A stretch of DNA of 64,000 bases, from positions 1 through 64,000 of the forward strand of contig JAKQSI010000050.1 of NCBI GenBank assembly GCA_029570205.1, written 5' to 3'. Positions 40,026-54,620 of the stretch are shown here, in pieces. The translations under genes and the position numbers were made by a program. This DNA is from Candidatus Omnitrophota bacterium (GTDB lineage: Bacteria; Hinthialibacterota; Hinthialibacteria; Hinthialibacterales; JAKPRU01). The first letter of the stretch is position 1; each line of letters begins with the position of its first letter. Below the pieces are notes generated by a model. It was not told where the DNA came from. It did not search any database and saw only the letters and a list, made by a program, of their open reading frames with translations.

Positions 40026-41279
40026 TCACTCATTCGGAACGAGGTCGGTGCGGAAAGGCATGTAGGCGGTTCCCCGAATACCGCGTCCTTTCTCACCGGG
40101 TCGAACCATGAAAGGACACAAGCACTTGCGATAATCGGAACCGAGCATGAAATTCATTGCGGACCCCGGCCCGGCATCCCGCTGGGTCAACGCCACGGAA
40201 AGGCTGTAATATCCCTCCAGCAGATTCAACTCCTCGATCACAAAACGACAGATCCCCGTTCCCCGCAAAGCCGGCAGGTCTCCCCGGATGATATGCGTGC
40301 CGGTGGTAATCAAGGCGTTGTCATCGTCATCATGAATGGAAATGCCGAACACCGGATCGGGATATTCCTCCGGGGAATGGTAATGCAGATCCACCCGCAC
40401 CCAATCGCCGGTATCGAACACATAGCGCTCGTTGCCCTCTTTATCATACATTTTGACATCGGTGATCTGCGCGCGCATATCGCCGAACCGGTTCCGAAGG
40501 GAGACCTCCGGCGGCGGCGCGATTCCGGCTGCCCGGCTAAGTTCGAACAGGTGCTGACGGTACAGGCCGATCATCTCGTAGGGATGCCCTTGCCCGATGA
40601 TCTCGCCGCGATCCATCACCACCGCCCGTGTACACAGTGCCAGGAGAACATCCAGGTCGTGCGAGACCAGGATGACGGTCTTGCCGGATGCTGCAATCTG
40701 CCGGAGATGGCTGACGCATTTCCGCTGGAACAGCTGATCTCCGACAGCCAGGATCTCATCGACCAGCAGGATGTCCGGCTCGACATACGCGCCCACGGCG
40801 AAACCCAGGCGCAAAAACATGCCGGAGGAATAATGTTTGACCGGTGTGTCGATGAATTTCCCGATCCCGGAGAAGTCGATGATATCGTTTACCCTCGCCT
40901 TAAGCGTTGCCTCCGGGATGCCGAGGAGTGCGCCCGACAGGAAGATATTCTCGCGACCTGTCAAATCCGGGTGAAAGCCGACACCCACCTCCAGAAGGGA
41001 TGCGATTGTGCCCCGGACGGTCAGCGTGCCGGAAGTGGGATCGGTAATTCCCGCAATAACTTTCAACAGTGTACTTTTGCCGGACCCGTTATCCCCAATA
41101 ATGCCGAGAATCTCGCCCGAATGGACATCGAGTGAAACCTCCCGCAGGGCCAGAAACTCCTCCGAGCGAACGCGGCGTGCCCCCCAGCGCAGGATTCTTT
41201 CTTTTAAAGTGGGATATTGCTCGTGGGAGAGATAGTAGCATTTGGTGACGCGATCCAGGCGAACGACAGGCTGCGTCAT
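40026..41279 (-). CDS. Wzt-like polysaccharide ABC transporter ATP-binding protein
   Basis: 417 residues. The ATPase has Walker A GIIGDNGSGKST, a signature KHYSSGMFLRLGFA and Walker B DILLVDEILAVGD, with the VHSGEILGIIGDNG and SLLEVGVGFHPDLTGRENI stretches typical of the TagH/RfbB/Wzt class. The C-terminal 150 residues form a Wzt-type substrate domain (HYHSPEEYPDPVFGISIHDDD, LNLLEGYYSLSVAL) that recognises modified O-antigen. The partner membrane subunit Wzm is not in the window. Its ATG overlaps the argH stop (ATGA), so translation is coupled to argH, an unexpected pairing. Confidence 0.92.
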   Translation of the reverse strand: MTQPVVRLDRVTKCYYLSHEQYPTLKERILRWGARRVRSEEFLALREVSLDVHSGEILGIIGDNGSGKSTLLKVIAGITDPTSGTLTVRGTIASLLEVGVGFHPDLTGRENIFLSGALLGIPEATLKARVNDIIDFSGIGKFIDTPVKHYSSGMFLRLGFAVGAYVEPDILLVDEILAVGDQLFQRKCVSHLRQIAASGKTVILVSHDLDVLLALCTRAVVMDRGEIIGQGHPYEMIGLYRQHLFELSRAAGIAPPPEVSLRNRFGDMRAQITDVKMYDKEGNERYVFDTGDWVRVDLHYHSPEEYPDPVFGISIHDDDDNALITTGTHIIRGDLPALRGTGICRFVIEELNLLEGYYSLSVALTQRDAGPGSAMNFMLGSDYRKCLCPFMVRPGEKGRGIRGTAYMPFRTDLVPNE

Positions 41280-42763
41280 TGTGGTTCATACTCCCTCACG
41301 GTTTTGCGCAGTTGCGCCAGCCTTTGAGCCTCCTGATCGCGCCAAGCCTTGATGGTCTGGGCTTGCAGGGCGATCTGCTCCAGAGACTCTCGGACCCTGT
41401 CGGGATGCGGGCCGAATGCCTGATGCCTCCGTCGCACATTCTCCGCCGGATCGGCAACGGCCGCGAACTCCGACTCCGTGAGAATCGCCTGCCCCGCCTC
41501 TCTCAGTACGTTGTTTATGTGTTCCAGGGAGAATCGTCCCGTTTCTTCGCACGCGGCGACGGCATCGGAGACGATTCGATACGCAGTGCGAAACGGCATT
41601 TTTCGCTCGCGGGCCAGCATGTCCGCCAGATCGACCGCCTCAATAAATCCCTGTGTTGTGGCCTTCTTCATTGCCTCCGTGTGTATCTCCAGTCCTTCCA
41701 GCAACCCGGCCAGGCCATCGGCGATTCCGGACACTTCTCGGATGACATCCATTTCCACGAACTTAGTCCATTGAGTATCCCGATTGTATCCGGAGAGGTT
41801 TCCCAGATTGGCGGCGAGCAACACCTGGGTGTGGCCGATGACGACTCCGGCTCGCCCCTTAATGACCTCCAGGAGATCCGGGTTGCGTTTCTGCGGCATA
41901 ATGGAGCTGCCCGTGGTCCAGGCTTTCGGCAAACCGACAAACGAGAACGCGGGCATGGAGAACAGAATGAGATCCTGCGAAGTGCGTGCAGCATGACGCA
42001 TGAATTGGGCACAGGCGGCGGCCAGGTCTGCCCCCATTTCCCCGCGACTTTCTACGGCGTCCAGGGAATTGATTTCCGGCCCATAGAAACCGAGCAGGTC
42101 AGCGGTGCGCTCGCACCGGATTTCCCAAGTTGTTCCGTAACTCGCGGCTCCGCCAAGCGGGGAGCGGTTCAGGCGCGGATAGATATCCCGCAAACGCTGG
42201 AGATCGCGCAGCAGGCCCGCCGCGTATGATGCGCACCAGTGCCCCCACGTGGTGACTGTCGCCGGGCGGTGATGAGTGAATCCCGGCATGACCGTCTCGA
42301 GGTGCTTCTCGGCGTGGTTCAAAACGGCCTCCAAGAGGACCTGCCATTCCTCCAGGAACGATAAGAGCGCATCCCGCAGATACAACCGCACATCCGTCGC
42401 GGACTGGTCATTCCGACTTCGCCCGGAGTGCATCCACCCGCTGATCGATTCTCCGGCAACCTGGGCGACCTCGGCCTCGATACAGATATGAACATCTTCC
42501 AGCGCAGGGTCCAGTTTCCACACACCCCGCTCGAAGCGGGTCTCGATCTCGCTCAACACCTCAAGGAGTTTTTTCAACTCTTCTTTTTGATAAATGCCGA
42601 TCTCCCCCAGCATGATACAATACGCCCGGTTGGTCCACAGGTCGTACGGAATCAGCAGTTCATCCGCCGGTGGAATGGCGGTAACATCCCGTCCGGCGCT
42701 CAATGCGATCATCCGCTCCTCGGCGGTTCCCTTTTTCCGGGTGGCCCATACTGCGCGATCCAT
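41276..42763 (-). CDS. argH: Argininosuccinate lyase ArgH
   Basis: 495-residue enzyme of the fumarase/aspartase superfamily that splits argininosuccinate into arginine and fumarate. Signature loop GSSIMPQKRNPD, plus GWMHSGRSRNDQSATDVRLYL and the catalytic-region PGFTHHRPATVTTWGHW. The last is slightly divergent, since most ArgH proteins have PGYTHLQxAQP. ATG 42763 (MDRAVWATR) is chosen. No other arginine genes are adjacent; it is followed with ATGA overlap by a Wzt-like transporter gene. Confidence 0.9.
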   Translation of the reverse strand: MDRAVWATRKKGTAEERMIALSAGRDVTAIPPADELLIPYDLWTNRAYCIMLGEIGIYQKEELKKLLEVLSEIETRFERGVWKLDPALEDVHICIEAEVAQVAGESISGWMHSGRSRNDQSATDVRLYLRDALLSFLEEWQVLLEAVLNHAEKHLETVMPGFTHHRPATVTTWGHWCASYAAGLLRDLQRLRDIYPRLNRSPLGGAASYGTTWEIRCERTADLLGFYGPEINSLDAVESRGEMGADLAAACAQFMRHAARTSQDLILFSMPAFSFVGLPKAWTTGSSIMPQKRNPDLLEVIKGRAGVVIGHTQVLLAANLGNLSGYNRDTQWTKFVEMDVIREVSGIADGLAGLLEGLEIHTEAMKKATTQGFIEAVDLADMLARERKMPFRTAYRIVSDAVAACEETGRFSLEHINNVLREAGQAILTESEFAAVADPAENVRRRHQAFGPHPDRVRESLEQIALQAQTIKAWRDQEAQRLAQLRKTVREYEPQ

Positions 42764-42866
42764 GGTGATGTCTCTCTTTCCTCGCACGTTTTTTACAAGA
42801 ATATCTATGAAAATAAAGGGATATCGGCGAGGGAGCTAAGGATTAAAAATGGAAAGTGAGGTGGTG

Positions 42867-43505: not shown

Positions 43506-44021
43506 ATGAGCGCGGCCAAACGTGTGCTGATCTGTGAAGATGATGCGGACGCCCGTCTCCTGATTCGTTCGATCCTGAACACCATCCATTTTGAAATCGC
43601 CGGAGAAGCGGAAACAGGAATACAGGCTTTAAATCTGTTCAGGGAAACAAGACCGGATATTGTCCTCCTGGACATTCAGATGCCGCAGGGGGACGGATTA
43701 ACGGTGCTTCGATTCCTGCGCGAAATCGATCGGCAGGTCCGTGTGATTTTGCTTACAGCGGATGATACCTCCCATTCGGTGAACACGGCCTTGAAATTGG
43801 GAGCGAATGATTATGTCATTAAAAGTTCATTGACTACACCTCGATTCTTACAGGCATTGCAGGTAGACGGTGTGTCGCAGCCGGAAGAGTCCACAGGCGG
43901 AGAAAAATCCAAATCCGACGAGGCTGCCGATGAGGAAGCAAAGAGCAAAACGTCAGGGGATCCCCAGCGGCGTATGACCACCATGGAACGACGCGAAGAG
44001 AAAAATTCCAGCCGGCGGTGA
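43506..44021 (+). CDS. Response regulator receiver protein, 171 aa
   Basis: A receiver domain (phospho-acceptor Asp56 in IVLLDIQMPQGDG, acidic pocket CEDD 10-13, Lys in DYVIKSS) followed by a 50-residue low-complexity charged tail (EKSKSDEAADEEAKSK) with no output domain. ATG 43506 has AGGAG 8 nt upstream. It is the first gene of a nine-gene + strand run. Its receiver resembles that of the convergent protein at 52636-54498 (both have REID and LTAD[DN]TS), suggesting duplication. Confidence 0.88.
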   Translation: MSAAKRVLICEDDADARLLIRSILNTIHFEIAGEAETGIQALNLFRETRPDIVLLDIQMPQGDGLTVLRFLREIDRQVRVILLTADDTSHSVNTALKLGANDYVIKSSLTTPRFLQALQVDGVSQPEESTGGEKSKSDEAADEEAKSKTSGDPQRRMTTMERREEKNSSRR

Positions 44022-44091
44022 TCTCCGCCCGCAACGATTTCGACCAGTTTTTCTATTCTCGATCGGACTGGGATAAACACAGGGAACGGAA

Positions 44092-44451
44092 ATGAATAAC
44101 GAGAAGTGTATCGACCCCGCAGCGTTGGAACGGATTCGCGGCATCGGGGGGGACGATCTGCTGACCAAGATGATCGCCCTGTTTATTCAAAATGTAGAAA
44201 AGCGCCTTCAGGAAGCCTTGGAGGGGAAGGCGGCCGGGGACTCGGAAATGATCGGTCGTGCGGCGCATTCCATCCGGTCCAGTTCGGGGAATGTGGGCGC
44301 GATGAGGCTTCAGCGGGTGGCATACGAGATCGAGCGGCTGGCGATGGAGGGAAATATCAACCGGGCCTGGGAGCGATTTGCCGAGTTGGAAAAAGTTTTC
44401 GCGGCAGTTAAAGCGCGTTTGACCGAGGAAGGAGAACAACCGGCACAATGA
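44092..44451 (+). CDS. HPt (histidine phosphotransfer) protein
   Basis: 119 residues, a single HPt four-helix bundle. The phospho-accepting histidine is His59 in GRAAHSIRSSSGNVGAMRL. It would relay phosphate between a receiver and a histidine kinase. Its stop overlaps the start of the next receiver gene (ATGA), so the pair is translated together. Confidence 0.9.
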   Translation: MNNEKCIDPAALERIRGIGGDDLLTKMIALFIQNVEKRLQEALEGKAAGDSEMIGRAAHSIRSSSGNVGAMRLQRVAYEIERLAMEGNINRAWERFAELEKVFAAVKARLTEEGEQPAQ

Positions 44452-44813
44452 AGAAAATTACCGTAGTGGAAGACAATCCGGACAACCGGCTCCTGGTCCG
44501 GGCCATTCTGGAAGATCTTTACGAAATAGTGGAATACGAGACAGGGAAGAATGCACTGGAAGGGATCAAACAAGCGAAACCGGATCTGGTCCTTCTGGAT
44601 ATCTCGCTTCCGGAGATGGATGGGATGGAAGTGCTGAGGCAAATCCGTGCCGATGCGGACCTGAAACAGCTTCGGGTGGTTGCCCTGACCGCTCATGCCA
44701 TGGCCGGCGACCGGGAGAAGTTCCTGGAAGCGGGATTTGACGGGTACGTCATAAAGCCGATTGTGGATGAATTCGCCTTGCTGGATATTATTCAAGCGCT
44801 TCTTGCGAAGTGA
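44448..44813 (+). CDS. Single-domain response regulator (DivK/CheY-like)
   Basis: 121 residues, receiver only. It has the acidic pair in VVEDNPDNRLLV, Asp51 in LVLLDISLPEMDGMEV, LTAHAMAGDREKFLEAGFDGYVIKPI and no output domain. The NPDNR and AHAMAGD features are typical of receivers working in phosphorelays with HPt proteins. ATGA overlap with the HPt gene upstream; the kinase gene starts 7 bp downstream. Confidence 0.92.
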   Translation: MKKITVVEDNPDNRLLVRAILEDLYEIVEYETGKNALEGIKQAKPDLVLLDISLPEMDGMEVLRQIRADADLKQLRVVALTAHAMAGDREKFLEAGFDGYVIKPIVDEFALLDIIQALLAK

Positions 44814-44820
44814 GAATGCC

Positions 44821-46767
44821 ATGACCGACAGCCCAGCGCCACTCAATCGAGCGGCATTTTGGAAACGATTCTGGGTCGCGTTTCTGCCGTCTATGCTGCT
44901 TGTGTTCGGTATTTCTTTTCTTCTGCATCACGTGAGCGCCCATTCGATAGAACCGTTTTCCGTCCGGAATGTGTTGCTGATCGACATCATTCTGGGGGTT
45001 GTCGTTGGAATCGTTTGTTTCCAGATTTCCCGTGAGGGATCCCGGAGAGAACAGGCAAAGGAAGATCTTGAGAAAGCGGTTACTGCATTGGAGGAACGGA
45101 TTCAGGATCGGGTTGCGGTTCTCCGGGAGACTAACGAATGGCTTCAACAGGAGATTCAACAGCGGGGACAAGCCGAGAAGGCGCTGACGGAAGCGCATTT
45201 GCAAATTCGTGGTTTGCTGGATGCCGCAACGAGAGTGTCCATGATTTCCACCGATCCGAACGGGATCATCACATTTTTCAATAAGGGCGCGGAACGACTC
45301 TTGGGATACAAGGCGGAAGAATTGGTCGGGCGGAAGACCCCCGAACTGTTTCATCTCAAATCCGAAGTCATCGCACATGGAGAGGAACTGTCACGGGAGT
45401 TTCATCGTTCCATCGAAGGATTCGAGGTCTTTGTGGCCCGTGCGCGGGAGGGAGGACATGAGGAACGCGAATGGACATACATTCGGAAGGACGGAACTTA
45501 CCTCACAGTCATCTTATCGGTTACCGCCGTTCGCGATAAGGCAGGCGAGATCACCGGCTATCTGGGAATTGCGCAGGATATTACGGAGAGGAAACGGGCC
45601 GAGAAGGCCCTGCAGGAAAGCGAGGAACGACTGCAAGACTTTCTCGACAACGCCATCAGTCTGATTCAAAGTGTCTCGCCCGACGGTCGTTTTCAATATG
45701 TCAACGCGGCCTGGAAACGAACGCTGGGATACCGGGACGAGGATCTGGCCGAATTACACTATTTTGATGTGGTCTGCCCGGATGAGCGGGAGCATTGCAT
45801 GGACACTTTCCGGCGGGTCCTCAAAGGAGAGGTCTTGCGGGATATTGAAACGGCGCTTGTCGCGAAAGATGGCCGTCGGATTCCTGTCTCCGGAAGCGCG
45901 AACTGTCGTTTTGAGGACGGAAAACCGGTGGTGATCCGCAGCATGTTTCGAGATATCACAGAAAGCAAACGCGCCGCGGAAGAACTGCAACGCGCGAAAG
46001 AGGAGGCCGAGGCCGCCAATAAGGCCAAGAGTGTTTTTCTGGCCAACATGAGCCACGAGCTGCGGACCCCGCTCAACTCGGTCATCGGTTTCTCCAATAT
46101 CCTCCTCAAAAACAAAACGGGAAATCTCACCGATCAGGATTTGTCATTCTTACGAAGGATTCTGGACAACGGCAAGCATCTCTTGAACTTAATCAATGAT
46201 ATTCTGGACCTCTCGAAGGTGGAGGCGGGCCGCATGGAAGTGGTGAAATCCACGACGGATCTCCACGCGTTGATCGTCGATATTATTGCGCAGTTCGAAG
46301 GACAACTGCGGGGGCGGGACCTGGACCTTGTGACCGACGTCCCCCAGCCCCTGGCCACGATCCAGGCAGATACCGGAAAACTCAAGCAGGTTATCATCAA
46401 CCTGATCGGCAATGCGATCAAATTCACCGAGAAGGGAACGGTTACGGTTCGGGTTGTCACAGACCCGACGACCCGTCAACCGATACGAATCGAGATTTCC
46501 GATACGGGGATCGGCATTCCGAAGGAGAAATTGGGTGATGTTTTTGAAGCGTTTCTGCAAGCCGAAGCCTCGACGAACCGAAGGTACGGCGGGACGGGGC
46601 TGGGATTGAGCATCTCACGGGCGTTCTGCGAGATGATGGGATACGCACTTGAAGTGGCCAGTGAGGTCGGCAAGGGATCAACGTTCAGCATTGTGCTTCA
46701 TCCGTCCAAGGAATCAAGGAAGCTGGATGGGCACGAAAACACGGTTGAAAGCATGGCAATACAATAA
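44821..46767 (+). CDS. PAS-PAS sensor histidine kinase
   Basis: 648 residues: two membrane spans (about 18-36 and 50-68) with only a short outer loop, a coiled coil (75-135), two PAS domains (about 135-255 and 272-385, each ending in a DITE/DITES PAC motif), then HisKA with phospho-acceptor His412 in LANMSHELRTPLNSVIGF and an HATPase with NLIGNAIKF, DTGIGIP and GTGLGLS. With so small an external loop, it probably senses cytosolic or membrane signals through PAS. No C-terminal receiver; the neighbouring receivers and HPt supply the relay. Confidence 0.95.
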   Translation: MTDSPAPLNRAAFWKRFWVAFLPSMLLVFGISFLLHHVSAHSIEPFSVRNVLLIDIILGVVVGIVCFQISREGSRREQAKEDLEKAVTALEERIQDRVAVLRETNEWLQQEIQQRGQAEKALTEAHLQIRGLLDAATRVSMISTDPNGIITFFNKGAERLLGYKAEELVGRKTPELFHLKSEVIAHGEELSREFHRSIEGFEVFVARAREGGHEEREWTYIRKDGTYLTVILSVTAVRDKAGEITGYLGIAQDITERKRAEKALQESEERLQDFLDNAISLIQSVSPDGRFQYVNAAWKRTLGYRDEDLAELHYFDVVCPDEREHCMDTFRRVLKGEVLRDIETALVAKDGRRIPVSGSANCRFEDGKPVVIRSMFRDITESKRAAEELQRAKEEAEAANKAKSVFLANMSHELRTPLNSVIGFSNILLKNKTGNLTDQDLSFLRRILDNGKHLLNLINDILDLSKVEAGRMEVVKSTTDLHALIVDIIAQFEGQLRGRDLDLVTDVPQPLATIQADTGKLKQVIINLIGNAIKFTEKGTVTVRVVTDPTTRQPIRIEISDTGIGIPKEKLGDVFEAFLQAEASTNRRYGGTGLGLSISRAFCEMMGYALEVASEVGKGSTFSIVLHPSKESRKLDGHENTVESMAIQ

Positions 46768-46828
46768 TGGAAATGCTCCCTCTCCTATCGGGAGAGGGTA
46801 CAGCCGGCAACAGCGGCAGGGAACCAAT

Positions 46829-48376
46829 ATGCCCGACATGGATGAAGAACTGAAAGCGCACTACCGGCAGGGACTTCGCGCGCGGATTGAGGCCCTGGAG
46901 GCGGTCCGAGCAGCCTTGCCGGAAGTTGCGCCGGAAGCGATTGAGCAGGTGAAGCGAACGGCCCATTCTTTGCGCGGTTCCGGAGCGACCTACGGATTCC
47001 CGCAGATCAGCCGGGTCGCGGAGGTCCTGGAATCCGCGAACGACAAGGATTTCCCCGAAGCGCTCGGCAGACTGATCGAGGTCCTGTGGGAAACGGTCTC
47101 CGAGGAACAGAAAACAAGAAACACCGTCCTGATTGTCGAAGACGATCCGGATATCACACACCTTTTCCAGGTCCGTCTCTCCGCCCCGGGACGAAGGATC
47201 CTGTTTGCGGAGACTTCTAAAGAGGCACAGAGAATCCTGCAACAGGAATCCATCTCGCTTATCTTGCTGGACCTTGTTCTGCCGGATATAGACGGTCGGC
47301 GGTTCCTGGAGATTCTGCGGGAACAGCCGCATACAGCGGAAATCCCGATTTTTGTCGTTTCCGGGGGATTGGGGAAACAGACACGGGAAGAATGTCTCGC
47401 CCTCGGAGCGGAGGCCTATTTCGAGAAACCTTTCGATCCGGCGGTGATATCGAAAGCGATCTCGATCAGGTTGCTCGAAACCGCAAGACCGGCTCAGGAA
47501 CCGTATCAAGACCCCATGACCGGACTCCCCAACCGAGCGGCCCTGAAAAACTCTTTCACGGATATGTTGGAAAAGACAACCCGTGCGCAGCAATCGCTGT
47601 CTCTCGCCATTATCGACATCGACCATTTTGAATCCATCAAGAATGCCTACGGCCACACGGCTGTGGAAACGGTATTGAAAGAGACCGCCGCCGCGATTGC
47701 GCAATCGGTTCGAACCGAGGATTTCCTGGCCCGCTGGGGCGAACAGGAATTCTGCCTTTTGTCTCCAAACCTCTCGAAAGAGGAAACCGCGCAACGCCTC
47801 GATAACGCGCTCAAGATCCTTCGGTCGAAGCGCTTCCGTCTCAAGGAAGGCCGAACGTTCCAGGTTGGATTTTCGGCAGGAGTCACGGACGTGACCGATG
47901 ATATCTCCCTGGAAGACATCGTCACAGAAGCGGGGAGATATGTTTATCAGGCCAAGACATCGGGTCGAAACCGGGTCATGTTTTCAAAAGGCCCGGAGGA
48001 AACAATCGACAAGAAAATCCTCCTGGCGGAGGATGATGACCTGATTGCCTCTATTATTGTGCATCGCCTGAAGCGGGAGGGATTCGAGGTAATTCATACG
48101 TCTGATGGGGTATCCGCACTCGAGGCGGCCAGAGAATCTCCGTATTCCATGATTATCGCGGATGTGAAGATGCCGGCCATGGACGGTTTTGAACTGCTTA
48201 CCGAGTTACGCAAGGACTCCTCGTTCAGTTCCGTGCCGATTGTGATGCTCACGGCGATGGGGAGCGAGAAAGACATACGACGCGGATTCGATCTGGGTGC
48301 GGACGACTATATCCCGAAACCTTTTTCGCCGATCGAACTTCTGGCACGAATTCGGCGCTTATTGAAGAGACGATGA
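46829..48376 (+). CDS. HPt-REC-degenerate GGDEF-REC protein
   Basis: 515 residues. HPt at 1-95 (His46 in VKRTAHSLRGSGA), receiver at 98-215 (Asp148 in LILLDLVLPDIDG), GGDEF domain at 225-390 (DPMTGLPNRAALKNSF retained) and a second receiver at 396-515 (Asp445 in MIIADVKMPAMDG). The GGDEF signature reads GEQEF (304-308): the second glycine and the acidic residue are changed, so cyclic di-GMP synthesis is doubtful and a GTP- or c-di-GMP-binding role is possible. It combines acceptor and donor sites of a phosphorelay. ATGA overlap with the next receiver gene. Confidence 0.92.
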   Translation: MPDMDEELKAHYRQGLRARIEALEAVRAALPEVAPEAIEQVKRTAHSLRGSGATYGFPQISRVAEVLESANDKDFPEALGRLIEVLWETVSEEQKTRNTVLIVEDDPDITHLFQVRLSAPGRRILFAETSKEAQRILQQESISLILLDLVLPDIDGRRFLEILREQPHTAEIPIFVVSGGLGKQTREECLALGAEAYFEKPFDPAVISKAISIRLLETARPAQEPYQDPMTGLPNRAALKNSFTDMLEKTTRAQQSLSLAIIDIDHFESIKNAYGHTAVETVLKETAAAIAQSVRTEDFLARWGEQEFCLLSPNLSKEETAQRLDNALKILRSKRFRLKEGRTFQVGFSAGVTDVTDDISLEDIVTEAGRYVYQAKTSGRNRVMFSKGPEETIDKKILLAEDDDLIASIIVHRLKREGFEVIHTSDGVSALEAARESPYSMIIADVKMPAMDGFELLTELRKDSSFSSVPIVMLTAMGSEKDIRRGFDLGADDYIPKPFSPIELLARIRRLLKRR

Positions 48377-48738
48377 AGATTATCCTGGTAGACGATGATT
48401 CTGATATGCTGTTCCTGACCTCAATGGCGCTGGAGAGAATCGGCGGGCATGAAGTGGTAGGCTTTCACTCGGCGAATGACGCGCTCGAATATGCGCGAGC
48501 AAATCCGCCGGATGCTATTCTGACAGATTACTTGATGGAAGACATGGATGGGCCTGAATTTCTGAGCCGGATTCTGGCCCAGGAAGAGACCGCCCGTATT
48601 CCGGTTGTGTTTCTGACAGCGAAAACGGATGCGAATACCGCGGAGCGATTGAGGACCCTGGGGGCGAAGGGGATGATCCGCAAACCGTTCGATCTCATGA
48701 AGATTGCAGAGGAATTCGAACGGATTCTTGCGGGATGA
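48373..48738 (+). CDS. Single-domain response regulator
   Basis: 121 residues, receiver only: VDDDSDMLFLT acidic pocket, Asp52 in AILTDYLMEDMDGPEF, VVFLTAKTD, GMIRKPFD. No output domain. Overlaps the HPt-REC-GGDEF-REC gene by ATGA and precedes the HEAT-repeat gene by 15 bp, linking the relay genes to the polysaccharide genes. Confidence 0.92.
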   Translation: MKIILVDDDSDMLFLTSMALERIGGHEVVGFHSANDALEYARANPPDAILTDYLMEDMDGPEFLSRILAQEETARIPVVFLTAKTDANTAERLRTLGAKGMIRKPFDLMKIAEEFERILAG

Positions 48739-48753
48739 TCACGGAGATCCTCA

Positions 48754-49830
48754 GTGCGTATTTTCGAGACGGAGTATTTTGCGGACCTGTCTTTTCAGCA
48801 TCGGGTATTGTTTCTGCTTTCCCTGGCGATTGTTTTTTTGTTGTTCTGTTCCGTGATCTTTGCGGTCTATGCGATCCTGCTGCGGATTCGCAACAATCGG
48901 AAAGCCGCATACTGGAAGCGTCTGGAAGCTGCTTGGGAAGAGACGATCCTGGAAGTCTTGTCCGGGGAAAAGCAACCCTCGGAGCTTCAGCAGCGGGTGG
49001 GGCGGAAAGACACGTTGTATTTTGTGGATTTTGTCTTGCGGTATGCGCGTCAACTGCGGGGACAGGAACGGGAGATCCTGACCGAGGTGGTACGTCCGTT
49101 TCTCGGCCGGATTGCAGAGCGAACCGTGGGCGGTGACGCGGAACGTCGCGCCCGCGCAGTACGGACAATCAGCGCGCTGGGTTTTGAGGAATACACGGAT
49201 CGTATTATTGCGGCTCTGGACGACCCGTCGCCGCTGGTGGCGATGATTGCCGCTCGCGCTCTCGCGCAGAAAGAGCATCCGCAATATGCCGTGCAGGTTC
49301 TCAAGCGTCTTCATCGATTTCAGGGCTGGAGTCGGAGTTATATGGCGACGATGCTTTCGGCGGTCGGGCCGCAGATTGCTCCTGCGCTGCGGGAGACACT
49401 GTTGGATGCCGGTCAGCCGCCGCAAGCCCGCGCCGTAGCCGCCGAAGCGCTTCGGGAGTTGAACGAATTCACCGCAGCGGATGATGCGGCCCGTATTCTG
49501 ACAAGCGAACACGACCGGGACTTGCTGGCATCCTGCCTCCGGCTTCTGGCACAGACCGGTCGCCCGGAACATTTGCCCGTTATCCGCCCCCTTCTGAAAT
49601 CGCCCGACTTTGTGGTTCGAGCGCAGGCGGTGGGAGCGCTGGGCGCTATTGGAGACGAGCAGGAAATCCCGTTTCTGCGAGACGCCTTTGAAGACCCATC
49701 CCCCTGGGTGGCAATTCAGGCCGCCCAGGGGTTGAAAGAGTCCGGCGGAGTGAAGGTCCTCGAACGGATCGCCGATTCGGACCATCCACGCGCCGATCTA
49801 GCCAGGCAAATCCTGGTGGGAGAGAACTGA
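48754..49830 (+). CDS. Membrane-anchored HEAT-repeat protein
   Basis: 358 residues with one membrane span (about 18-44) followed by HEAT/PBS-lyase-like repeats, seen as paired helices such as FEEYTDRIIAALDDPSPLVA, DFVVRAQAVGALGAIGDEQE and SPWVAIQAAQGLKESGGVKV. These form an alpha-solenoid that binds other proteins, probably on the cytoplasmic side if the short N-terminus is outside. The start is GTG 48754 with GGAG upstream. It sits directly before the glycosyltransferase gene (2-bp gap) and is probably a scaffold or regulator of that enzyme. Confidence 0.85.
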   Translation: MRIFETEYFADLSFQHRVLFLLSLAIVFLLFCSVIFAVYAILLRIRNNRKAAYWKRLEAAWEETILEVLSGEKQPSELQQRVGRKDTLYFVDFVLRYARQLRGQEREILTEVVRPFLGRIAERTVGGDAERRARAVRTISALGFEEYTDRIIAALDDPSPLVAMIAARALAQKEHPQYAVQVLKRLHRFQGWSRSYMATMLSAVGPQIAPALRETLLDAGQPPQARAVAAEALRELNEFTAADDAARILTSEHDRDLLASCLRLLAQTGRPEHLPVIRPLLKSPDFVVRAQAVGALGAIGDEQEIPFLRDAFEDPSPWVAIQAAQGLKESGGVKVLERIADSDHPRADLARQILVGEN

Positions 49831-49832
49831 CC

Positions 49833-51251
49833 ATGGTGAAAGCGCTTTGGGCGTTTGTCTGGTTTTGCAATGCCCTGGTAATCGGATACTTCATTACCAT
49901 CAGCGCCGTGTATTTTCTGACCAGCTTGCTGGCATTTGGAGCGCTGCGTAACTATGTCCGGCGGCTCCATTCTCTGGATACAAGAGAGCTGATCACCTCT
50001 GCCGGTGCGCCGCCCATCACCTTGCTGGTCCCCGCGTACAATGAGGAAGCCACCTGTGTGGAATCCACCCGGTCATTCCTGACCCTGGAGTATCCCGAGT
50101 ATGAGGTTCTGGTTGTGAATGACGGATCTCGGGATCGAACGCTGAACCGCCTTACGGAGGCGTTCGACCTGGCTCCGACGGTGCGTGCGCCGATGGCGGA
50201 AATTCGCACCGCGCGCATCCGGGGCATTTATCGCAGCCGTCGGTATCCGAATCTCTGGGTGGTTGATAAGGAGAACGGCGGTAAGGCGGACTCGCTGAAC
50301 GCCGGTCTGAGTTTCTGCCGGACCTCTTTGTTTTGCGCCTTGGACGCCGATAGTCTGATCGAGCGGGAAGCGCTGGTCCGTGTGGCGCGGCTGTTTCTGG
50401 AAGACCGAACAACGGTAGCCGCAGGCGGGATGATTCGCATTGTGAACGGCTGCACGATCCGCGCGGGAATGGTAACCGATATTCGGCTGCCGGAAAACTA
50501 CCTGGCACGATTTCAAGTATTGGAATACCTGCGGGCTTTTCTCGCCGGCCGAATGGGATGGAGCGTGCTGAATGCCACGTTTGTCATCTCCGGCGCGTTT
50601 GGGGTGTTCCGACGGTCCACAGTAGTCGATGCGGGTGGATTTGCCGTCGACACCGTGGGGGAAGATATGGAACTGGTCGTTCGACTCCATCGCTACTGTC
50701 GAGAGAACAAGATCCCGTACCGGATCGCCTACATGCCTGATCCGGTCGCCTGGACGGAGTGCCCCGAATCGACACGGGTCCTGGGCCGTCAGCGCGACCG
50801 CTGGCAGCGCGGGCTGATGGAGACAATGTGGCGGCACAAACGGATGCTGTTGAATCCACAGTATGGAATAATCGGACTCCTGGTTTATCCGTACTTTTTC
50901 TTCCTGGAGATGCTCGGTCCCATTATTGAATTCATGGGGTACATTTCATTCCTGATTGTTTTATTCCTGGGTTCGCCCGAGATGATATACATTGTGGCGT
51001 TTCTTCTGGTCGCGTTTGTACTGGGTGTGGCGTTGTCGCTGGCGGCCGTAGGCCTGGAAGAGATTTCGTTCCGCCGGTATCCGCGAACCGCCGACCTGGT
51101 CGGATTATTTCTCCTGGCCGTCCTGGAGAACTTCGGCTATCGACAGATGAATATCTGGTGGCGATTCCGTGCGGTGTATTCCAAGATCCGCGGCGTGAAA
51201 GGGTGGGGAAAAATGGAACGGAAAGGATTTACTACGCAGGCAAGTAAATGA
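49833..51251 (+). CDS. Processive family-2 glycosyltransferase (YaiP/PgaC-like)
   Basis: 472-residue inner-membrane polysaccharide synthase. One or two N-terminal spans (about 5-38), then a GT-A catalytic domain with VPAYNEE (66-72), Asp97 in VVNDGSRD, DAD (171-173), GED (276-278) and QRDRW (320-324), the set found in processive beta-glycan synthases. Four or so C-terminal spans follow. Resembles PgaC/IcaA and E. coli YaiP; the sugar cannot be told. It overlaps the YaiO-like gene by ATGA, echoing the yaiP-yaiO association of E. coli. Confidence 0.93.
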   Translation: MVKALWAFVWFCNALVIGYFITISAVYFLTSLLAFGALRNYVRRLHSLDTRELITSAGAPPITLLVPAYNEEATCVESTRSFLTLEYPEYEVLVVNDGSRDRTLNRLTEAFDLAPTVRAPMAEIRTARIRGIYRSRRYPNLWVVDKENGGKADSLNAGLSFCRTSLFCALDADSLIEREALVRVARLFLEDRTTVAAGGMIRIVNGCTIRAGMVTDIRLPENYLARFQVLEYLRAFLAGRMGWSVLNATFVISGAFGVFRRSTVVDAGGFAVDTVGEDMELVVRLHRYCRENKIPYRIAYMPDPVAWTECPESTRVLGRQRDRWQRGLMETMWRHKRMLLNPQYGIIGLLVYPYFFFLEMLGPIIEFMGYISFLIVLFLGSPEMIYIVAFLLVAFVLGVALSLAAVGLEEISFRRYPRTADLVGLFLLAVLENFGYRQMNIWWRFRAVYSKIRGVKGWGKMERKGFTTQASK

Positions 51252-52534
51252 GTCCGATATCTTTTTGCATTTTGCTGTCCACGATATCTGTGTCGCCCTT
51301 TACCGGGGCGGACCAGGCATTAGCGCGCGGAGAGTACGACACGGCGATTCGCGAATACCGTCGCGTTCTCGAAACGGAACCGAAATCTTACGAGGGGCGG
51401 TTCGGACTGGCACGCGCGCTCTATTACACAGGAAAACACGCCGAAGCGGTCGAAGTCTGCTCATCGATTCTGGAGGATACGCCGAGGGATCCCGATACCC
51501 ATCTCTTGCGGGGACGCGCACTGGCGGTTCAGGAACGTTTTGAAGAGGCAGAGAAGGACTTGCTTTTCGTGGCAGAAAACTACCCGAAATATGGCGATGC
51601 CTGGTCGGCTCTTGGTGATGTCTATCTCTGGTCGAAACGACCGGAACAGGCAGCCCAGGCCTACACGAAATGGATCGAGTTGGAACCCGATAATCCCGAT
51701 GCATACCTGGCCCGGGCAAAAGCCTATCGGGAGAACCGGCAATTTTCGCTTACCCGCCGAGACCTGGCTGCCGCGCGCTCGAAGGGCGGCGATACAGACG
51801 AGATCGACCGGATATCAAACGGATTGAACCGGATACCGGATGCCCTCCCGTGGGAATTCGGTATGAATTATTCTTATCAATCCTTCAACGAAGACCGCGC
51901 AGATTGGCATGAGACCAAGGTGTACGTACAGCGGAGTTTTTCGCGAGGTTCCCTGGCGGTGGAATCCATCCGAGTCCGACGGTTCTCGTCCTGGGATGAG
52001 GCGGTGGCGCTGGACGGCTACCTGGATCTCTGGCCGGATGCATACATCAATCTTCGGGGCCAGGTTACCCCCGAAGCCGATGTGCTCTCCGATTCGGAAT
52101 ATGCGGTAGAGTTGTTCCAGGGATTCGGCGACGGCTGGGAAATTTCCGGCCGATACAACTATCGAAATTACCCCGATAACAATCTCGATATCTATGGAAT
52201 CTCGTTGGGAAAATACCTGGGGGACTGGTATCTTCGCGCGCGGGCCTCTTTTTTGCCGGAGGATGACCACACACTGGACTCTTACGGAGTAACCGTTCGA
52301 CGTTATTTGACTGCGGCGGATGATTTTATCGAGATCAACGCCGGGCGCGGCAAGGAGATGGTAACGATCGGCGCAGGCCCGCAGATCGAGACCCATCGCA
52401 CGTATTCCTTTTCCTTCCGGTTACAGAAATTCGTTACCCCGCATTGGGGATTTACCCTGGGGGCCAATTACGACGATCAGGAAGAATTACCTGTAGGACG
52501 CGGCGTGTCAGCGGGAATTATCACACGCTGGTAG
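51248..52534 (+). CDS. TPR plus YaiO-family outer-membrane beta-barrel protein
   Basis: 428 residues: signal sequence (about 1-20), three or four TPR units (25-170, e.g. YDTAIREYRRVLETEPKSYE), then a C-terminal beta-barrel (about 195-428) with alternating aromatic strands and a terminal aromatic residue (GVSAGIITRW). This matches YaiO-type outer-membrane proteins and the general plan of PgaA/BcsC-like exporters (TPR scaffold plus barrel). Coupled to the glycosyltransferase gene (ATGA), it is the likely export pore or anchor for that polymer. Confidence 0.88.
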   Translation: MSPISFCILLSTISVSPFTGADQALARGEYDTAIREYRRVLETEPKSYEGRFGLARALYYTGKHAEAVEVCSSILEDTPRDPDTHLLRGRALAVQERFEEAEKDLLFVAENYPKYGDAWSALGDVYLWSKRPEQAAQAYTKWIELEPDNPDAYLARAKAYRENRQFSLTRRDLAAARSKGGDTDEIDRISNGLNRIPDALPWEFGMNYSYQSFNEDRADWHETKVYVQRSFSRGSLAVESIRVRRFSSWDEAVALDGYLDLWPDAYINLRGQVTPEADVLSDSEYAVELFQGFGDGWEISGRYNYRNYPDNNLDIYGISLGKYLGDWYLRARASFLPEDDHTLDSYGVTVRRYLTAADDFIEINAGRGKEMVTIGAGPQIETHRTYSFSFRLQKFVTPHWGFTLGANYDDQEELPVGRGVSAGIITRW

Positions 52535-52566
52535 TTCTTGGTGGCGTGGATATCTACCCCCTCAAT

Positions 52567-52613
52567 CTCCCCGTAAACGGGGGGACTTCTTCTCCCTCCC
52601 CGTTTACGGGGAG
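52567..52613. terminator. Perfect 16-bp inverted repeat between convergent genes
   Basis: CTCCCCGTAAACGGGG (52567-52582) and CCCCGTTTACGGGGAG (52598-52613) are perfect reverse complements with a 15-nt loop. It lies between the ends of the YaiO-like gene (+) and the receiver gene (-), where it may stop transcripts from both sides, although no T-run follows. The arms belong to the same repeat family as 123-140. Confidence 0.55.
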
Positions 52614-52635
52614 GGCCGGGGGGAGGTCTGTTGCC

Positions 52636-54498
52636 TCACGTCTCCTCATACTTCTCCCGATACTTCTGTTTCAGCCGTTCCTTTTCCGCCGCCCGTCTTC
52701 GTTTAACAATGTCTTCCTCGCTTACTTCCTCGGTCTGCTTACTTTTCGCCGGTAGTTTATCCACAGCGGAATATCGTTGTGTGATCCGGCGGAGCAATTC
52801 TTTAACATAGCTCGGGTTGGATTCATTGATATCGAGTGTCCTCAGTTCGTCACAGGCTTCTCGGTACAGGAACGGATACGCTTTCTCGATGGCCTGAAGT
52901 CCGTTTCCGCTCAAGAGTTCTTTGACATGATTCCCCCTTGAATAAACATCCGAGCGAGACCCCAGGGTCGGTTCCAGCCGCAGAGAAAGATATCTGGCCA
53001 ACAGCGTGTTGAGCAGCAGGGGACGCATCAAGTCGGGAAGCCGGACGGAGTCGAATCGGCGGGTGAGTTCCTCGATGGAGAAAACAGTGTATCCCTTGTC
53101 ATCGAATATATCTATCGGATCCAGCGAGTTCTTTAAGCCATATCGATGTCTCTGGCCGTGCGTGATAAGTAAAGAAAATGTTCCGAATTCGGTCAGTTGA
53201 AGCAGGGGGATGACAGAGAGGGACCAGCGATTCTGGAAATGCTTGAGATGCGGGGCATACGACCGTCCGTCCATCCAGTAATACAGATCGGCCCGCTCCT
53301 CGCTGCTTGCTTCATTATCCGAGAGAGAAGAGGTCACGGCCAGGTATGTTTCCGGGGCTGCCGGGCAAGGCAGAAGCCGCAAGGAGCCGAAAATGACGGC
53401 CTTGGGGATTCCCTGCCAACTTGCGTAATCCCGCACATCGCGGATGTGGAGTCGCATTCGTTCTATCCGGGGCCGGGAGTTGCCGGATTGCTCCAGGATG
53501 GAAAGGATATTGAACGCGGAAAGAAACAGGCAGGTCTCGAGCGTGAGACCGTTGAAACTGCACACGTAGCCGGGCAATTCCTGACATTCCATATCGGCAT
53601 TCAGGGGGTACTGATTCGGCAGGGATGGGAGGGTTCGAGCATGTTCCGTGTCGTACACGGTATAGGGACGGCCATCGGGCGCTAATCCGGGCGGCAGGGA
53701 TTCAAGTTCCGCCGGCGCGTGTTGGCGAACAGCGAAGGACATAGACTCCATGCGGCTGATATTGGGTTTCGGTTCCAGGCTCAATTCATATATGCCGCCG
53801 GTCATTCCCTGGTCGTAGAGAATACCGGGGATTTCTTTGGATCCCTCGATTTTCTTGAACAGCCCCATGAAGAAATTGGGATGGCGAAGGATTTCCCGGT
53901 ATGTGCTTCTGACCTCGCCTTCCTCGCGGGATGCGCTGAGCGGGTGATAGAAAAAGAGGCTTCCATGGTCGTTTGCATGCAACCCCCCCGTGATATACAC
54001 CTTGTCATAGCCCGGCAATCTGTCGGCCACCACTTTCACGGCCTGATTGGTTTCGGTAATGAATTCTTCTACAGAAGAAGGTGGCCTGGCGGAAGGCATG
54101 GAGAATCCGGCGGCACGGTTGACAACAGATAGCAGGTGACGGGGGTCGAGGAACCGTTTTGCGATATAGCCTTTCGCGCCCAAACTGATAGCGGTGTGGA
54201 CGGATTCACTGGTGTTATCCGCAGTCAGCATGATGATGCAGAGTTTCGGGTCGATCTCGCGGAGGACCGGCAGAATGGTCAGTCCGTTTCCAAGCGGCAT
54301 ACGCACATCCAGAATCAGGATTTCCGGACGTTTTTCGACGACCTGCAGGATTGTGTCTACCCCGGTTTTGGCCTCTCCGCAGACATTGTAGCCGTTACGC
54401 TCGAAGAGTGTCTTGAGTATCAACAGGGTATCGGAATCATCATCGCTCAGGAGGATTCGCGGAGCTGGGGATGTTTGGGGAATTGACTGGTCGTTCAT
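52636..54498 (-). CDS. Receiver domain fused to a large unrecognised domain
   Basis: 620 residues. Residues 13-130 are a receiver (acidic SDDDSD, Asp64 in ILILDVRMPLGNG, LTADNTSESVHTAISLGAKG). The remaining 490 residues match no family I know. They contain GYDKVYITGGLHANDHGSLF, PGILYDQGMTGGIYELSLEP, LETCLFLSAFNILSILEQSG and a charged C-terminal helix (EEDIVKRRRAAEKERLKQKY). No DNA-binding, kinase or enzymatic signature is visible. It is convergent with the phosphorelay cluster, and its receiver resembles the first receiver there, so it may be an output of the same relay. Confidence 0.8.
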   Translation of the reverse strand: MNDQSIPQTSPAPRILLSDDDSDTLLILKTLFERNGYNVCGEAKTGVDTILQVVEKRPEILILDVRMPLGNGLTILPVLREIDPKLCIIMLTADNTSESVHTAISLGAKGYIAKRFLDPRHLLSVVNRAAGFSMPSARPPSSVEEFITETNQAVKVVADRLPGYDKVYITGGLHANDHGSLFFYHPLSASREEGEVRSTYREILRHPNFFMGLFKKIEGSKEIPGILYDQGMTGGIYELSLEPKPNISRMESMSFAVRQHAPAELESLPPGLAPDGRPYTVYDTEHARTLPSLPNQYPLNADMECQELPGYVCSFNGLTLETCLFLSAFNILSILEQSGNSRPRIERMRLHIRDVRDYASWQGIPKAVIFGSLRLLPCPAAPETYLAVTSSLSDNEASSEERADLYYWMDGRSYAPHLKHFQNRWSLSVIPLLQLTEFGTFSLLITHGQRHRYGLKNSLDPIDIFDDKGYTVFSIEELTRRFDSVRLPDLMRPLLLNTLLARYLSLRLEPTLGSRSDVYSRGNHVKELLSGNGLQAIEKAYPFLYREACDELRTLDINESNPSYVKELLRRITQRYSAVDKLPAKSKQTEEVSEEDIVKRRRAAEKERLKQKYREKYEET

Positions 54499-54512
54499 CG
54501 GTTTGGGCTGCC

Positions 54513-54620
54513 GGGCAACCACGGTGGGTTGCCCCTACGAGCCATGTTTCCTGTAAGGGCAGGCCCCTGTGCCTGCCCGATAGGTCCTCTCCCTCCGGGA
54601 GAGGGTCGGGGTGAGGGTCC
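54513..54620. repeat. Cluster of three palindromic repeats
   Basis: GGGCAACC/GGGTTGCCC (54513-54520 and 54526-54534), GGGCAGGC/GCCTGCCC (54557-54564 and 54571-54578) and a CCTCTCCCTCCGGGAGAGGG copy (about 54586-54605) occupy the region upstream of the receiver-fusion gene and downstream of hflC. Any promoter here must be embedded among hairpins. Confidence 0.7.

Follow-up and report, generated by a model that had tools for sequence, protein, structure and literature searches.

A phosphorelay gene run with a recurring HEAT-GT2 core: a proposed receiver-controlled polysaccharide synthase in a Candidatus Omnitrophota bacterium

The well-studied bacterial polysaccharide synthases PgaC, BcsA, and NfrB are switched by c-di-GMP. 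In the NfrB-NfrA-YbcH system of E. coli, a GT2 synthase has its own outer-membrane partner and is locally contacted by a signalling protein; NfrB contains an MshEN c-di-GMP domain, and DgcJ makes contact with it (PMC8669469). In the present study, we analyzed a stretch of 64,000 nucleotides from a Candidatus Omnitrophota bacterium (GCA_029570205.1, contig JAKQSI010000050.1), hereafter called the window. It contains a run of nine same-strand genes at 43506-52534, which was confirmed, with all nine genes present, by ORF translations and Pfam searches:

43506..44021, + strand: REC1, a stand-alone receiver whose C-terminal tail is charged and of low complexity (PF00072, 1.2e-25)
44092..44451, + strand: HPt phosphotransfer protein with the histidine motif AHSIRSSSGNVG (PF01627, 1.6e-13)
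44448..44813, + strand: REC2, a stand-alone receiver, in ATGA overlap with the HPt gene (PF00072, 1.2e-26, and sequence)
44821..46767, + strand: membrane histidine kinase, TM-PAS-PAS-HisKA-HATPase_c, without a receiver of its own (Pfam)
46829..48376, + strand: HPt-REC-GGDEF-REC protein with the degenerate GGDEF motif GEQEF (PF01627, two PF00072, PF00990)
48373..48738, + strand: REC3, a stand-alone receiver adjoining the HEAT gene, starting in an ATGA overlap, proposed relay output (PF00072, 3.2e-23)
48754..49830, + strand: TM-anchored HEAT-repeat protein, predicted to be cytoplasmic, with a GTG start (PF13646, 3.1e-24)
49833..51251, + strand: processive GT2 of 472 aa (QRDRW), proposed polysaccharide synthase (PF13641, 3.1e-19)
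51248..52534, + strand: protein combining TPRs with an outer-membrane barrel of the YaiO type, the proposed exporter, in ATGA overlap with the GT2 gene (PF19413, 7.2e-25; TIGR04390, 2e-38)

The Pfam results bore out the component list of an earlier note made from the sequence: three receivers, an HPt, a PAS kinase, the HPt-REC-GGDEF-REC protein, the HEAT protein, the processive GT2, and the TPR/barrel protein. That note also counted four ATGA overlaps, and we found three (44448, 48373, and 51248). The fourth is invalid: an ATG at 48735 does overlap the stop of REC3, but its reading frame is not that of the HEAT gene. The HEAT-GT2 gap of 2 bp and the overlap of GT2 with YaiO indicated tight coupling, and the run is looser at a 70-bp gap after REC1 and a gap of about 60 bp after the kinase. 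A promoter scan gave nothing above chance.

We then compared the locus with the described synthase systems. The PgaABCD/IcaADBC systems share with it a processive QxxRW GT2, a small membrane partner, and a TPR/barrel exporter, and the window GT2 shares 25% identity with E. coli PgaC across 343 aa. However, it scored 130.7 bits against the PgaC equivalog model TIGR03937 (cutoff 422.3 bits) and PgaC falls outside its clade, and Pfam detected neither PgaB or another deacetylase nor PgaD in the nine proteins. The window barrel is predicted to have 14 strands, and the HEAT protein and phosphorelay stand in place of the c-di-GMP co-subunit PgaD. The locus resembles the NfrB system in pairing a GT2 synthase with its own outer-membrane partner and a signalling protein, but the 472-aa GT2 lacks MshEN, its neighbours are receivers and an HPt, and NfrB lies outside the clade. 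BcsA chains were the nearest solved GT2 relatives by phmmer (E about 1e-12); the window GT2 nevertheless has no PilZ domain and scored 63.7 bits against TIGR03030 (cutoff 699.1 bits). Unlike BcsA-BcsB-BcsC, the window has no BcsB and a different exporter barrel, and BcsA is again outside the clade. With E. coli yaiP-yaiX-yaiO, the window shares a YaiO-family barrel (PF19413, TIGR04390), whereas no HEAT or receiver gene is annotated there and pairwise BLAST between the two YaiO proteins was not significant. The locus resembles a synthase-dependent exopolysaccharide system, yet it falls outside the Pga, Bcs, Nfr, and YaiP systems.

Among the parts, the barrel alone is a member of a named family: it scored 88.4 bits against PF19413 (cutoff 23.9 bits) and 132.7 bits against TIGR04390 (cutoff 32 bits). 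Its AF2 model (pLDDT 93.0) showed a TPR superhelix and a 14-stranded barrel, with a fold similar to the OmpG, CymA, and FadL barrels. No NCBIfam model names the HEAT or the GT2 protein above its cutoff. We found no description of HEAT-GT2 systems in the open-licence full-text literature, which agrees with the earlier view that the set is not a described system, and a description elsewhere is possible; the HEAT-GT2 system is apparently undescribed. The literature leads (EmbRS of Rubrivivax, Actinoplanes EPS clusters, Xanthomonas, and the Bacteroides iron stimulon) proved to be other systems.

The GT2 carries the motif of processive enzymes (QRDRW), and D97, D171/D173, E277/D278, Q320, R323, and W324 were invariant in alignment A1. 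From this motif and the relatives of the protein, we infer that the GT2 makes a polymer. All 115 HEAT-type GT2s formed one clade (support 0.907), and PgaC, BcsA, NfrB, YaiP, and every control GT2 fell outside it. The window GT2 was nearer to PgaC/BcsA than to YaiP, and E. coli YaiP lacks QxxRW. The label "YaiP-type" is therefore wrong, since the HEAT-type GT2s form their own clade apart from YaiP. In two loci, a GT2 of the clade is fused to a membrane-bound PF00884 domain that resembles sulfatases and phosphoglycerol transferases (L150:1437-4874 and L151:615-4019), and a similar PF00884-like gene adjoins in L094; the fusions suggest that some members decorate the polymer. Fusion-like frames of GT2 and a YaiO-like barrel were found in two related loci (L082:9078-11213 and L141:8531-11482), where a signal-peptide-like stretch separates the two parts. 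The long GT2 frames in L049, L135, and L148 were rejected as fusions; in these, the open frame extends upstream over other genes.

When species genomes were scanned with the GT2 alignment, 80 loci were returned. These came from Gemmatimonadota, Neomarinimicrobiota, Acidobacteria, Actinobacteria, Firmicutes, Bdellovibrio, gamma- and alphaproteobacteria, Bacteroidota, Ignavibacteria, Elusimicrobia, Thermus, Myxococcota, Margulisbacteria, and two archaeal MAGs. The full nine-gene order, including REC1, was retained in the same genus (L013). Within the same order, the HPt-REC-GGDEF-REC protein, REC3, HEAT, and GT2 were retained, and YaiO mostly so. Neomarinimicrobiota/FCB loci (L022, L027, and L030) had nearly the order of the window, namely HPt, REC, hybrid kinase, HPt-REC-GGDEF-REC, REC, HEAT, GT2, and YaiO. 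The domain-order tables revealed a recurring core of receiver, TM-HEAT, and GT2, with or without the YaiO barrel. The barrel sits between receiver and HEAT in proteobacteria (Stutzerimonas, Vreelandella, Brevundimonas, Erythrobacter, and Luteimonas), and none was detected in the neighbourhood of the archaeal, actinobacterial, and Thermus members or of most Firmicutes ones. The two archaeal MAGs with a HEAT-GT2 pair (L061 and L081) are from Methanomicrobia, with a kinase and receiver, and Thermoplasmatota, without them.

HEAT was the immediate upstream neighbour of GT2 in 83/84 related loci and in 29/30 loci of a broader sample, drawn from about 370 genomes irrespective of the HEAT-GT2 system; a receiver just upstream (same strand, within 2.8 kb) was present in 71/78 and 18/28 loci, respectively. 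Since related loci are not independent, these figures are counts and not probabilities. The GT2 was carried by 28 of about 372 distant genomes (about 7.5%). As controls, 30 other processive GT2 loci were retrieved with E. coli PgaC from an overlapping genome sample. In their 1.5-kb flanks, we found HEAT at 0, REC at 1, and YaiO at 0 loci, whereas the same flanks of 24 HEAT-type loci contained HEAT at 23, REC at 14, and YaiO at 6. As background, the genome encodes about 46 REC domains, and its HEAT ORFs number about 10. Given this background, the order kept across phyla, and the control loci, the gene run is more than chance. These results demonstrated that the HEAT-GT2 pairing is firm and that the core is widespread, so that the window holds one local version of a conserved system and not a one-off. 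The earlier note had treated the relay genes and the HEAT-GT2-YaiO trio as one set and had named a gene order not conserved in relatives as counting against this; the order was conserved, which supports the grouping.

The HEAT assignment was based on the PF13646 match and the AF2 model (pLDDT 95.8), in which a helix at residues 14-69 (56 residues, membrane part and stalk) is followed by a regular solenoid. The model resembled designed and natural HEAT proteins, with alphaRep matches at Z of about 19-20. In 92/94 HEAT proteins, a single N-terminal helix precedes a basic stretch (mean 5.4 vs. 0.7 K/R). According to the positive-inside rule, the solenoid is therefore predicted to be cytoplasmic in these 92 proteins. 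The HEAT and GT2 distances correlated at 0.68. An enlarged scaffold, a HEAT protein of about 1200 aa preceding the GT2, was observed at L154:5941-9555.

Judged from the sequences, the parts of a multistep phosphorelay are all present: a HisKA kinase, a receiver, an HPt with its histidine motif, and a terminal receiver. Pfam detected neither an HTH nor any other output domain in the receiver proteins of the run. Among the receivers adjoining HEAT (or YaiO before HEAT), 87/90 end with a REC domain and 60/90 are single-domain; the remaining architectures are HPt-REC, HPt-REC-REC, HPt-REC-GGDEF-REC, and similar. The claim that no receiver has a DNA-binding output thus held for this gene run and for almost every relative. 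The phosphorylation residues were kept in these receivers (acceptor D in 95%, K in 98%). By the count of label changes on the tree, the HEAT-adjacent RECs were far more clustered than shuffled labels (23 vs. a mean of 74.5 changes), and the tree rejected a single clade for them.

The best explanation, which we favor with somewhat more confidence than doubt, is a phosphorelay-controlled polysaccharide synthase in which docking of REC3 on HEAT switches the GT2. The GT2 would polymerize the polysaccharide and translocate it across the inner membrane, and YaiO would export it across the outer membrane, where one exists. TM-HEAT would be the constant partner subunit, anchored by its one N-terminal helix with the solenoid in the cytoplasm by the GT2 active site. 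A His-Asp-His-Asp relay would run from the kinase through REC1/REC2, HPt, and the HPt-REC-...-REC protein to the output-less REC3, which, once phosphorylated, would dock on HEAT and switch the synthase. We infer which way the phosphate flows, that REC3 contacts HEAT, and that GT2 is gated. That a phosphorylated REC binds HEAT and changes GT2 activity would be the simplest reading, because the receivers lack an output domain and keep their place beside a HEAT protein paired with GT2. Synteny, predicted topology, and the missing output domains favor control by contact through HEAT, and the last receiver probably gates the GT2 in this way.

The REC-HEAT step is put forward as a hypothesis, because receiver and HEAT showed no extra co-divergence and about one third of the broader-sample loci had no nearby receiver. 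In the distance-matrix (mirror-tree) test, receiver-HEAT co-divergence was weak (0.20), and the HEAT-adjacent RECs reached 0.15 compared with 0.28-0.41 for the remaining RECs of these loci, with no specific REC-HEAT signal. Natural REC-HEAT or HEAT-GT2 fusions were not found in about 115 loci.

An alternative is control by c-di-GMP, in which c-di-GMP made or sensed by the GGDEF protein would act on GT2 or HEAT, as in the PgaCD, BcsA, or NfrB systems, and the receivers would serve only to regulate the cyclase. Known synthases are activated by c-di-GMP, as is NfrB (PMC8669469), Neomarinimicrobiota relatives have an intact WGGEEF, and the Stutzerimonas loci have a GGDEF protein. However, the signature in the window reads W-G-E-Q-E-F and departs from the GG[DE]EF of active diguanylate cyclases, so the cyclase site is degenerate; the motif was likewise degenerate in 4/4 examined same-genus or same-order relatives (GEQEF, GEKEL, GNDDF, and NGEDL). 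The domain is missing from the HPt-REC-REC versions (L026, L034, L036, L039, and L040) and from loci with only stand-alone receivers, and no PilZ or MshEN was found by Pfam in the nine proteins. Being intact in Neomarinimicrobiota, degenerate in the order of the window, and absent from the HPt-REC-REC versions, the GGDEF domain is not a constant part of the system. We therefore regard control by c-di-GMP as unlikely.

It is also rather improbable that HEAT serves constitutively as a structural subunit or co-polymerase and that the receivers, co-located for co-expression only, control something else, such as a distant transcription regulator via phosphate flow or localization at the cell pole. 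The near-universal HEAT-GT2 pairing, together with the receiver-free third of the broader sample and the mirror-tree result, is consistent with such a subunit. The recurring receiver, however, is nearly always output-less and adjoins HEAT in the majority of loci from very different lineages, and receivers were rare near the control GT2s. That a signalling operon and an unrelated polysaccharide operon are neighbours by chance, for which the 70-bp and ~60-bp gaps inside the run might speak, is hardly credible, being contradicted by the synteny in same-genus, same-order, and other-phylum genomes and by the clean negative control.

Returning to receiver docking on HEAT, a broader proposal is that the locus represents an unnamed synthase class, present in about 7% of sampled prokaryotic genomes including archaea and gated post-translationally by a phospho-receiver docking on HEAT; we put this forward tentatively, at slightly short of an even chance. 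The pattern suggests that many microbes may switch polymer production by protein contact and not by gene regulation or c-di-GMP. If true, output-less receivers and the HEAT-GT2 core would be a second way to switch polysaccharide synthases, including in archaea, and a phosphorelay counterpart of the c-di-GMP-gated synthases. Single-domain receivers would gain a concrete target, and many unannotated operons a testable function.

On the flanks of the run, an ABC-transporter ATPase gene resembling those of polysaccharide exporters overlaps a gene resembling argininosuccinate lyase upstream (40026-41279 and 41276-42787, - strand). Downstream, the interval between YaiO and a convergent gene (52550-52620) contains repeated CCCCGTAAACGGGG-type palindromes that are terminator-like, with a hairpin at 52566 on the + strand. 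The convergent gene (52636-54522, - strand) encodes a receiver followed by about 490 aa without a Pfam match; its REC is similar to REC1, and both same-genus genomes have the gene in the corresponding position.
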